Under the pieces are notes generated by a model. That model ran no database searches and was not told where the DNA came from. It saw nothing but the letters and a program-made list of their open reading frames with translations. From NCBI RefSeq assembly GCF_022201045.2, contig NC_068557.1, positions 32,155,501 to 32,219,500 on the forward strand: a DNA stretch of 64,000 bases, given 5' to 3'. A program made the position numbers and the translations under genes. Source of the stretch: Citrus sinensis (lineage: Eukaryota; Streptophyta; Magnoliopsida; Sapindales; Rutaceae). This document shows, piece after piece, positions 11,294 through 16,426 of this stretch; position 1 is the first letter of the stretch, and each line of letters starts with the position of its first letter.

Positions 11294-14200
11294 CTACCTG
11301 CCTGACATTAGACTGTCTAGACCTTGATTTTCATAGAATGAGCCAATATCCCAATCCTCAGATGAAGATGACAGTGTCATAAGAGCAACAGCAATTGCCC
11401 TCATGCTTGGCCTTAGTTGAGGATTTTCTTGCGTACAAGCTCTGGCAAGCCGAGCCATCTGTGATAAAAAAATATGAATTGCAGCTAGTTAGTACTGTGA
11501 TTATTAGTCCATATGTACTTACATCCTGGGATCAGATTACACATTACCTTTCTGACTGAGTCGATTGGGTAATCGTCACCAAGCCTTGGATCAACAAGTC
11601 TCTGAAGATCTTCTCTCGGATCGGGCTGACGAAGAACTTCTTCAAACTGCAAGAAACCAACATGCACAACTTAGTTCTAATTGAAATAATTTGGCCGATA
11701 CATGTAATGGTGATCATTGAAGGGCAAGAATAACAACCAAAGCGACAAGGCCTGTAGATTCGGTGATAGTTTCATTTGTCTTTACAACAGCTTCCATAGC
11801 GGATATAAGTTCATAGAGGACAACTCCAAAAGCATACACATCTATCTTTGGGGAAACCTCTCCGTATTGTGCATACCTGCATCGCAGATGTTGCATCAAG
11901 TCTAACTATTTTTGTTGAATCAAAATTAGCCAAAAAGAACGAGGCCTTACTCTGGAGGCATGTAACCAAATGTACCAACGAGACGTGTGTGTACAGAAGC
12001 ACTTCCAACTTCGGTCAGCTTGGCCAACCCAAAATCAGCAACCTGTCAACACAAATAACCTAGTTCGAGTACATATATATAACGTAATAAGATTGAGAGA
12101 TGGACGAGACATAGAGAGCAAGAGATAGAGAGAGAAAGAAAGGCATATTTTTTACCTTAGCACGGAAGTTCTTGTCTATTAAGATGTTCGCTGGTTTAAT
12201 GTCGCGATGAATGTAAACAGGAACAGTATGTTCATGGATATATTCAAGTCCTCTAGCCGAATCCAAGGCGATTTGCATCCTAGCTGACCATGTCAGTGTA
12301 TCCTTTCCTGAAAGCAGGAACACAATATACAACCATCAGATATAATTGCCACCAAATTATATGCAACATAGGATGTCTATAGAGCATATGAATCATCTTG
12401 CTCACCCGATCCACGCAAATGCTGATTTAGGTTGCCATTCTCAATGTACTCATAGACCAAAAACAAGGAACCCTCGACACAGTATCCTATCAAGCGGACC
12501 TGCATAATATATTTAGCGTACGAGTACGAGTACACATAAATTAACACAGTTAGATTGAGGGTTAAGATATCAGCTCAAAGGATCATCTTAACAAATTGAC
12601 AATACAAGTTACTTCTACAGTCAGAGAATATATGACCGACCATATTGTCTCATCATAAATTGTCAGAGAGGTCTTTCGACAACGTCACAGTTTTTATGTC
12701 TAATAAAAGTCTCAATAGAAAAGGAAGATACCAGGTTCAAGTGATGAACATGTGTTAAAACCTTCAGCTCGGCAAGAAATTCTTTTGATGCTTGCATATC
12801 CATCTTCTTGATTGCGGCTTTCTGAATAGTCCATTAGGGGAACGGGGAGTCAGCCAAATTCATACACAAGGGATGACTTTTGGAGTTAGAAATTACAAAA
12901 GTTAGATAATTACTGACAGATATTAGAATGAGTATCATACCCAAGGCCAAGTACGCAGTAATCAATCAAATACAAACCTCGCCTCGTAGTTCAGCATAGA
13001 AAACAGCTCCAAAGCCACCTTGCCCAATCTTGTTACCCATGCTGAAGTCGTTAGTAGCCTTGGCAAGCTCTTCATATGAGAATTCCACTGATTTGTCCAC
13101 AGTAATACCTGTGACCCCAGGAGCAGCAACAAGGGCCGCTGATTCTGAATTTTTCACCAAGGCAATCGCAGGACCTAAATCCACAACAAAGGCAACAATT
13201 AATCAATATAATAAGGAATTACATACCTAGTAACTACTACTCATTAATTCTTCCTCATTGCATGAAAGAACTCTGCCCACAAAATAAGCAAATGCCTTTA
13301 CTTCTTTGGGATAAATTATAAGCGTAGCCATATACTTTGATGGACATCAGGGAAAATACTCATTACATGGGATAAAATTTTGCTTAGAAATTATAGAGAA
13401 CAAAAAGAGAAGCATATTGTAAAACACATTTTCCTCTCAACTTATTTACGTTTCTTATGACTGTATCTTAGACAGAAAAGCAGGATAATTCATCCGACCT
13501 AAAGAATTACCGTGCTGAATATAGTGATCCTCTGATGCTTCTGGGAGAAATGATGCCTCCACCACTTTGTTTCTTCTATAAACCCCAGCATATACACAGA
13601 ATGCCAAAAATAGAGCACCGGCAACTCCTCCTATAGATATGCCAGCGATAGCTCTGCTTGATATCCCTGCTTAAAATGCCAAAACAGTGTAAGCTCATGA
13701 CAGCACCTATTCTGTGGAGATTTCTCATAAGACCTCATTCATACTCAGAAATTTTGAAACAAGAAGCAATAGTCAATAGTGTCAAAACCCTATCACCTGT
13801 GCTGCAAAATACAAAACACATCAGAAGCATATGACCATTAGACATCTCGAAACAAATATTTCAATAACAAAAAGGAGGAAAAAGAAAAAAAAATGCATAC
13901 CAATTAAAATGGCTAATTTGAGAAATTTCAATGGTAACATGTCTTACCTTGTCTTTAATGGCGGATAGTTTCCACTTTGATCTGAAAAATGAAAAACATA
14001 GAGAGATTGATCACAAGCAATTTAAAGCCCAAGCCCGAGAGTAAACAATTGCCTTCATACTTATACAGTGCAGAAACTTAACCATGAATGTCAAACTAAC
14101 ATCAACAAAACAAATTGCATTATGCACATAATTAACTGGGAAGCCTAAAGTCACTAAAGGCGTCAAAGTTACCTTTAACAGGAACAAAAGCCAAACCACT

Positions 14201-14803
14201 CCCACTGATAAAATCCAAAGTGGGATTGTAACTCTGCAACAACTCTGAAGAAAGCTCAAACTCATTGGCAATGCTACTCAAATTCTCACCAGGCCTAAGT
14301 GGGTAAGTCAGAAACAACCCATAATCCTTTGAAACACTCTTACTTCCACAAGAACAATTCACTATAACATTCACACTTGAACTAACATCTGGCGTATGAT
14401 TCTCATCATAAGCATTAGAACTCTTCAGCCAATCAAGAGTTGTAAGGTTGGCATATATTAGCTCAGCGATCCTCTTGTAAGTGTTACCGGACTTTACTTT
14501 GTAAGAAAAACTATGACCAAGAAATTTGTTTTGAATGCAGTTGCAACTAAAGGGTACATTAATTCTTGTACCAGCTAGGATTATGTCTTTGTTAGTTATT
14601 TGTGGGTTGAAGCTTAGAATGTACTTGATGGAAGTATCAAACACTTTTGAAATGAATGTTAAGTTTGCTCCTTTCCATAAATAATACGAAGCTAAAGCAA
14701 GATCACAACCTTTGCTACACTCTGCTACTGCTTCCACTCTTCTACGTGCACAAAAGAAAGCAAGCACCAAAAGCAGCGCCAGTTTCAGTTCAAAAACTCT
14801 CAT
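11294..14803 (-). CDS. LysM-domain receptor-like kinase with YAQ motif, cluster copy 2
   Basis: Minus-strand exons: 14173..14803, 13948..13981, 13797..13801, 13511..13666, 12978..13174, 12732..12821, 12406..12499, 12156..12307, 11951..12042, 11738..11876, 11548..11646, 11294..11458. Total 1854 nt, 617 residues, with the same twelve-exon plan and phases as copy 1, so the two are tandem duplicates. Features: signal peptide, three LysM domains (210 residues in exon 1), a TM in exon 4, glycine loop [28 protein letters not shown] (D near 438), DFG (D near 456). After GTFGYMPPE comes [17 protein letters not shown], so residues 485-487 are YAQ. In published NFR1/CERK1 comparisons this motif marks kinases able to signal in symbiosis. 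Exon 3 is only five bases. A role in mycorrhizal and/or chitin perception is inferred from family and motif, not shown by the DNA. Confidence 0.93.
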
Positions 14804-14945
14804 TCTTTCAAATTTGCACTCGGAAGAATATCCGTTTAGATGTTAAATTTTTGGGGACCGGGGAGGGTCTTGAAGCAATAAATGTCCGAGAGTGATAGAC
14901 GTGTTCATGAGGTTAACTAAGTCATACAATACAAAGATTAGTGGA

Positions 14946-14962
14946 GTTGACGTTGAGTCAAC
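14946..14962. promoter_or_regulatory. Palindromic double W-box/TGACG element upstream of LysM copy 2
   Basis: GTTGACGTTGAGTCAAC reads as two inverted TTGAC cores, with an overlapping TGACG (TGA-factor core), about 145 bp upstream of the copy 2 ATG. WRKY and TGA factors bind such cores in defence promoters; binding here is inference. Confidence 0.4.
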
Positions 14963-15780
14963 GGCTGAAGCAAACATTCTTAAATTTAATAATTTCCGAA
15001 GCTTCGTCGAGGTTCTCATGGCGACTGGCGATACTGACTCAATCCCAGTCCAGGTCCTGACTCCCAAATTTCCGAATGGACCAAGGAAGGAAGGCCCATA
15101 ATTGAATCCACAAATATTTGAGGCCGAATTTCATTTTTTGGACTAATACTAATTACACCCCTAACAATTCTGAAAAACATTACGTAATGTTTTTTAGCGG
15201 AATTAAAGGCTGTGATAAAGGTATGTGGAAGTGGAACCCACGTGTGACAACAGAGGTGTCAAACAAGAAACAACAATGTCCTTTGCCAAGGACACATGAA
15301 GACGGGGGGCGTCAATTTGAAAGAGATCATTTTCATGTGCAAGCGTAAATTACAAATAAGAGCGTGTGTTATGGTTGGGAAGGGAATAAGAATTTTAAAG
15401 ACGATATGCTTGAACAACTATCAAGTAACAAATTAATGCTACAAAAGTGACAAATATTCTTGAATCTGTTATCGTACCTTATTTGTTTTATCTCCCAACT
15501 TCAGTATAATCATATAATTTTACTTGTGAAAATCGTTCTGTTTACATTTTTATTCCCATCAATTTTGTTCATATTAGCTAGAGGAATATGCCACTCCTAA
15601 TTGGATTGATGAAAATTTTCAAGTCATCTAATTATTGGACCGTCCAATCTAAGTCATCTAAACCCTTTTTGCTTCTTGGTCGATGCATTATATCATCTTA
15701 ATTAGTCAGATTGCTGGTGATCAAAGAACTAAACTAAGCTAGCTCAAAATGTCAAAACGTCTTAAAAAATTAACACTGAC

Positions 15781-16426
15781 CTCTTGCCGGCACAAAAACA
15801 AGACCAGTCCCAGCAGAGAAATTGGTTCCGGGATTATACCTCTGCAGCGACTGAGGTGCAACACCGGCCTCGGCCGCGACGGAGGACAAATTCTGAGCAG
15901 GCCGCAGAGGGTAGGTGGTGAACAAGCCATAATCTCTGGAGATGTGTCTATCGCCACAGGAGCAATTAACAGTGACGTTTATGAAAGCATAGTCGGGGAT
16001 TCTGGTGGGTTCATAAATGTTAACTCGACGCACCCAGTCCTCAGTAGTAAGATTAGCAAAAGCGAAACTAGCAACTTTTTCATAGGTGTCACCGAACTGA
16101 GTCTCGTAAGTGAAAGTGTGGCCCAAGAAATCACCGTTTAAGCAGTCGCATGAAAACGGGATGCTGATTCTTGTATCGCTAAGGATGGTGTTTTGGTTTG
16201 GAATGTTTGGGTTGTAAAGAAGAATCTGAGCTATGTCTTCGCCGAATATGCTGCTAATATACGTCAGGTTTGAGCCTTCCCATACGTAATATGAAGCTAG
16301 GGCAAGTTGACAGCCCGTGTTACACTTGCCTTGGGCTTGGAGAAGCTGCAGATGAAAGGTTAACAAAAACAAAATTATTAGGGTTATTTGTGTTTTCTTT
16401 GGTAATATGGTGATCATCACGACCAT
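15781..16426 (-). CDS. Orphan LysM ectodomain exon, cluster copy 3 (no kinase exons of its own)
   Basis: An intact exon-1-like ORF encodes a signal peptide (charged start, then IILFLLTFHLQLL) and a complete three-LysM ectodomain with CNTGC, CDC and CSC cysteines, conserved NLTTEDW and DYGLFTTYPLRP, ending GLVFVPAR. At the place where copies 1 and 2 splice, it has a GT dinucleotide (GTCAGT, weaker than the GTAATT and GTAACT of the others) in identical phase 1. Without splicing it reads G-Q-C-stop, giving a 218-residue secreted protein. No transmembrane or kinase exons lie between it and copy 2 (14804-15780). Three readings are possible: a truncated pseudogene, a soluble LysM protein, or an alternative first exon for the kinase exons of copy 2. 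The frame has no stops or frameshifts, which argues against an old pseudogene. Confidence 0.8.

Follow-up and report, generated by a model that had tools for sequence, protein, structure and literature searches.

A probable alternative first exon for a tandem LysM receptor kinase gene in Citrus sinensis

The window analysed here is a stretch of 64,000 nucleotides (nt) of the Citrus sinensis genome (C2:32155501-32219500; positions below count from its first letter). It carries a cluster of LysM receptor kinase genes of the LYK-I group: two complete tandem genes, copy 1 and copy 2, and, upstream of copy 2 on the same strand, a lone exon that encodes a further LysM ectodomain (hereafter the orphan). 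This exon probably functions as an alternative first exon of copy 2. Its frame is intact, its phase matches that of the neighbouring first exons, its fusion to copy 2 is open, the gap behind it holds no trace of a separate kinase, and it has been under long-term constraint. Its transcription, its splicing and a difference in ligand are inferred.

The proposed mechanism is as follows. A promoter 5' of position 16426 would drive a pre-mRNA spanning both the orphan and copy 2. The resident first exon of copy 2, which is without a strong acceptor, would be spliced out along with the intron, and the orphan donor (15781) would join exon 2 of copy 2 (13981). The product would be a complete LysM receptor kinase that pairs another ectodomain with the same transmembrane segment and kinase, and promoter choice would thereby set which microbial glycan the kinase reports.

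An intact ectodomain exon in phase with copy 2

The orphan exon (16426..15781, minus strand) is 646 nt long, that is 215 codons plus 1 nt. It starts with ATG, has no internal stop codon and ends in ...GCAAGAG, followed by GTCAGT. The sequence-only reading of this DNA had stated that the exon ends in phase 1 at a GT exactly where copies 1 and 2 splice. This is confirmed, as the first exons of all three have the same length modulo 3 (a remainder of 1) and end in the same alignment column. Spliced in silico to exon 2 of copy 2 (13981..13948, minus strand; the proposed shared acceptor exon) and the rest of that gene, the orphan gives an open reading of 622 residues, with a hydrophobic segment from about residue 235 followed by the copy 2 kinase. 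The junction yields DQSGNYP, which fits the short D-x-x-G-x-(Y/F)-P exon 2 of LYK-I genes (DANGVFP in the third family gene of the genome), and the letters across the junction are those given in the sequence-only reading.

The encoded protein has the anatomy of a LYK-I/CERK1-type ectodomain: a signal peptide (recognized by eye) and three LysMs split by CxC pairs, all in a single first exon. It matches solved CERK1-type ectodomains (4eby, 5ls2, 9h24 and others) with E values down to 5e-60, and its six cysteines are all present and in register with them. In Pfam, the LysM_RLK model (73.7 bits) and the LysM model (PF01476, 28.4 bits) both score above their cut-offs. By its PDB title 9h24 is MtCERK1, and by theirs 9h3b and 9qrs are Lotus CERK6; 5ls2 is labelled LjCERK6 here because its aligned letters equal those of 9h3b, and 4eby we take to be the Arabidopsis CERK1 protein (AtCERK1). 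These three (4eby, 5ls2, 9h24) are 50-54% identical to the orphan with the same cysteine spacing, and differ from it and from copies 1 and 2 by 4-8 extra residues in LysM1.

Between the orphan donor and the copy 2 ATG lies a gap of 977 nt (14804..15780, minus strand), which would serve as intron for an orphan-first transcript and as promoter for copy 2. A tblastn search of this gap for a remnant of exons 2-12 or of a kinase found nothing significant (best E 0.83). Nor did 16427..17400 yield a significant trace of a kinase or of exon 2 (best E 2.3). Between copies 2 and 1, the best match had an E value of 0.18 and was a 41-residue stretch with a stop, found against the orphan and not significant.

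Relationships and age of the orphan

A protein search of the genome (299.7 Mb, 11 contigs) at E 1e-5 gave 10 matches among the best-scoring candidates. Four are LYK-I first exons, with 47-100% identity (the orphan, copies 1 and 2, and L010), and kinase exons follow three of the four (copies 1 and 2, and L020, the third LYK-I gene of the genome, at C2:19478500-19488400); the remaining six have 24-31% identity. The mature ectodomain of the orphan is 52% identical to copy 2, 49% to copy 1, 54% to L010 (the third family member of the genome), 50% to AtCERK1, and 52 and 54% to the two legume CERK1s; copies 1 and 2 share 62% identity in this part. In the unrooted ectodomain tree, copies 1 and 2 group together (support 96.8/96). 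A branch of modest support (91.1/79) puts the orphan on their side, opposite L010, AtCERK1 and the legume CERK1s. All three ectodomains of the window also have a LysM1 without the 4-8 residues found in the other four sequences. Most likely, judging from these comparisons, the orphan is an old relative of the cluster that split off earlier than the divergence of copies 1 and 2. The orphan's placement in the tree makes membership of LYK-Ia possible; the available parts of PMC7536700 and PMC6050466 contain no usable character that discriminates LYK-Ia from LYK-Ib. L020 has a longer LysM1 and is nearer to the legume CERK1s (59-60%) than the ectodomains of the window are; it is perhaps the canonical CERK1 of this genome.

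Synonymous divergence (dS) points the same way. Between copies 1 and 2, dS is 0.68 (0.59-0.81) in exons 5-12 and 0.93 (0.69-1.30) in the ectodomain, which would fit a single whole-gene duplication. At the orphan, synonymous sites are saturated, with lower bounds on dS of about 2.5 against copy 2 and 2.1 against copy 1. By this measure the orphan is not a fresh duplicate.

Constraint on the orphan

Despite its age, the orphan has no disabling change (stop, frameshift or lost cysteine) and no neutral rate in our pseudogene test. Relative-rate counts with four outgroups show no faster change in the orphan than in copies 1 and 2 (largest chi-square involving the orphan 1.59). It keeps 43 of the 49 columns that are invariant in the other six sequences; the corresponding counts are 43/48 for copy 2, 43/54 for copy 1, 43/45 for L010 and 43/47 for AtCERK1.

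Codon models, which exclude the signal peptide and gapped columns (178, 179 and 179-182 ectodomain codons and 340 kinase codons), give a similar picture. For the orphan branch, a nonsynonymous/synonymous rate ratio (omega) of 1 is rejected both with four sequences (twice the difference in log-likelihood, 2dlnL, 16.3; p 5e-5; orphan omega 0.125) and with three (log-likelihood -1723.6 vs -1694.8; 2dlnL about 58). Giving the orphan its own omega brings no gain over one common omega (2dlnL 0.63), and a separate omega improves the fit for L010, copy 1 and copy 2 (2dlnL 9.7, 9.3 and 6.0). In the four-sequence tree, omega = 1 is not rejected on the ectodomain branches of copies 1 and 2. These branch fits hint weakly at a freer evolution of the resident ectodomains, a claim softened by the pairwise omega between copies 1 and 2, which is 0.30 (0.22-0.45) in the ectodomain and 0.17 (0.14-0.22) in the kinase parts. 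A more speculative and rather unlikely extension is that this kinase has its older, conserved sensor in the upstream ectodomain, with the proximal one evolving freely; through promoter choice, one kinase would then keep a conserved glycan reading and test new ones.

Splice sites and upstream region

Copies 1 and 2 together have 22 introns, and all but intron 1 of copy 2 (21 introns) went into the splice matrices. With these, none of the 106 AG sites in 15760..13970 outscores the acceptor of copy 2 exon 2 (score 11.9, the next being 8.2), and 11 of the 3608 minus-strand AG sites of the window score as high. The best AG 5' of the copy 2 ATG scores 7.4, and by these scores no acceptor in the stretch from the orphan donor to exon 2 of copy 2 is predicted to compete with that of exon 2. 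The proposed intron would be 1799 nt long. This is not extreme for the family, since the first introns of the three complete genes measure 191, 245 and 1210 nt (the last in L020). The orphan donor, GTCAGT (15775..15780, minus strand), has the invariant GT and agrees with the consensus at positions +4 to +6, yet is weak overall by the family matrix.

Upstream, a TATATATA element (16549..16556, minus strand) begins 130 nt 5' of the orphan ATG; when the bases of the 400 nt were shuffled 2000 times, 54 of the shuffled sequences contained one. A scan for TATA[AT]A in the 400 nt 5' of copies 1 and 2 found none.

Several results weigh against the use of the orphan as a first exon of copy 2. The most direct concerns the donor (GAG|GTCAGT), which scores 4.83, with just two of the 22 family donors lower; three of the 83 GT sites in 16426..14804 beat it (it ranks fourth), and of the 3355 GT sites on the minus strand of the window, 336 score at least as high. 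The top rank of the exon 2 acceptor is expected anyway, because copy 2 itself uses it. Upstream ATGs stand at -95 and -71 of the orphan start (16427..16566, minus strand) and may dampen its translation. As for the protein, PF01476 scores 28.4 bits in the orphan vs 44.7 and 41.1 in its neighbours, and the orphan's LysM2 subfamily model reaches 20.4 of the 27.4 needed, where the neighbours pass theirs; its LysM1 subfamily model is likewise below the cut-off (24.5, cut-off 36). The omega values are rough, with saturated synonymous sites and parameters at or near their bounds (at the bound, the omega of copy 1 in both fits and the length of L010 in the four-sequence fit; near it, the orphan length in the three-sequence fit). 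Finally, constraint along the branch could date from an era when the exon had its own kinase, in which case it is not proof of present use. The sequence-only proposal of an alternative first exon is upheld in part: the anatomy suits it in frame, phase, open fusion, constraint and the lack of any kinase found nearby for the orphan itself, and the precedents described below share the arrangement; the weak donor counts against it, and the use itself is the part that we infer.

As for the upstream ATGs themselves, the one at -95 opens a six-codon upstream open reading frame and the one at -71 overlaps the main start in another frame (frames assigned by eye).

Alternative explanations

The same reading had offered a second option, in which the orphan is a stand-alone gene. 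Its transcript would end in the 977-nt gap and its product would be a secreted 218-residue protein with three LysMs, binding chitin fragments as a decoy or co-receptor. The read-through form was described correctly: translation continues for three codons beyond the donor to give 218 residues ending in ...VPARGQC, and the stop codon ends at 15770, 11 nt beyond the exon. The gap holds one AATAAA (at 15554), and the orphan has its own TATA-like element. The option nevertheless lacks specific support. When the gap was shuffled 2000 times, 1113 of the shuffled sequences contained an AATAAA or more than one, so that the single AATAAA is at chance level. Copies 1 and 2, read past their donors, soon reach a stop as well, and a short tail is thus not particular to the orphan. 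The read-through form lacks the C-terminal hydrophobic tail of a glycosylphosphatidylinositol (GPI) signal, unlike a GPI-anchored LYM, and a secreted protein leaves the donor at the exact family position without a role. We regard this option as unlikely.

Scarcely different in our estimate, and also improbable, is that the orphan is the 5' part left over, now functionless, from a third tandem receptor gene whose kinase was cleanly and recently deleted (e.g. by unequal crossing-over). The locus is a tandem cluster, and a clean deletion that fused the first intron to the next promoter would give the observed layout. The weak donor and the two low Pfam LysM scores suit such a remnant, and the constraint measures average across the entire branch. 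On the other hand, the orphan has neither a stop, a frameshift or a lost cysteine nor an increase in rate. Under simulated neutral substitution, frame and start stay intact in 110 of 1000 runs at 0.1 changes per site, in 10 of 1000 at 0.2 and in 0 of 1000 at 0.4. Constraint and an intact frame speak against a long-dead exon, as far as such comparisons reach, and are still compatible with a recent loss of use. Moreover, even such a deletion would by default set the exon in phase before copy 2 exon 2.

That the orphan's kinase exists and was collapsed out of the assembly is very improbable: tandem paralogues can collapse, and a single assembly was examined, but the window has no N, the orphan DNA has a single match in the genome (itself, with no second copy), and copies 1 and 2 are so well diverged (dS 0.68 in the kinase, 0.93 in the ectodomain), the orphan more so, that a collapse is unlikely.

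Related systems and significance

Alternative first exons are an established mechanism in LysM receptors; an alternative first exon of copy 2 would place it in another gene cluster, combined with a tandem kinase pair. The closest precedent is PanLYK3 of Parasponia andersonii (LYK-Ib). According to the available text of PMC7536700, its exon 1 is duplicated, both variants splice into a shared exon 2 (with RNA-seq reads counted), and the same duplication exists in the LYK3 genes of further Parasponia and Trema species; neither variant specifically controlled the infection phenotype. The orphan locus has the same arrangement: an extra exon 1 lies 5' on the same strand, with its own start and in phase with exon 2, and no kinase is found in the gap. 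As in PanLYK3, each exon 1 copy encodes a signal peptide and three LysMs behind its own putative start, and here too one kinase would serve both. The two settings also differ. In PanLYK3 there is no duplication of the whole LYK-Ib gene, whereas two complete tandem kinase genes adjoin the orphan, and the split of the orphan most likely predates the tandem duplication; the orphan is moreover known here from sequence alone. Its age and the good preservation of the alternative ectodomain are what is unusual about it.

Two further systems are informative. PcLYM2-2 of Populus x canescens has two mutually exclusive three-LysM first exons, with cDNAs and peptides for both (available text of PMC13402948). 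It resembles our proposal in placing alternative three-LysM first exons on common downstream exons, and differs from it in being a GPI-anchored receptor-like protein without a kinase. LYK2bis of Medicago truncatula R108, in the available part of the review PMC9037385, is a receptor of a tandem LYK array that mixes two neighbours and broadens the range of rhizobia. In contrast to the arrangement proposed here, this genomic chimera is an additional gene and does not involve alternative first exons. Among the paper titles listed we recognized no citrus instance of alternative LysM first exons, which does not prove their absence from print, and the available portion of the review PMC6207691 does not treat alternative first exons.

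If transcription of the orphan follows this proposal, a single kinase of immunity or symbiosis would report two different microbial glycans via promoter choice. The locus would then join Parasponia LYK3 and poplar LYM2-2 as a LysM receptor whose first-exon sensors can be swapped, and would hint that the conserved one-exon ectodomain design eases such swaps. Gene models restricted to a single transcript would miss the orphan-first form.

Gene models and neighbouring genes

Copy 2 (14803..11294, minus strand) is a complete 12-exon LYK-I gene of 617 residues. Its resident exon 1 (14173..14803, minus strand) encodes the ectodomain, and exons 3-12 (11294..13801, minus strand) encode the transmembrane segment and the kinase, with no stop or frameshift as modelled. 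The kinase matches solved CERK1-type kinases (E to 1e-163) and has the GxGGFG, HRDIK and DFG motifs. Copy 1 (7092..10798, minus strand) is likewise a complete 12-exon LYK-I gene, of 610 residues, and the two proteins are 70% identical; in both, the modelled exons join at GT/AG introns without stop or frameshift. In the models, exon 3 has 5 nt in copy 2 (13797..13801, minus strand) and 8 nt in copy 1 (9783..9790, minus strand), a micro-exon that gene finders could easily overlook.

Beyond the orphan, the coding exons of an RbcX gene (17462..18535, plus strand; Pfam RbcX 1.6e-30) run divergently from the receptor cluster, with 1035 nt between its ATG and that of the orphan. At the other end of the cluster, the ectodomain of copy 1 differs at 11 of the 54 columns that are invariant in the other sequences, with an RP in the third LysM among the changes. 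The activation segment of copy 1 is also unlike that of copy 2. With these altered ectodomain columns and activation segment, copy 1 may be diverging in function.

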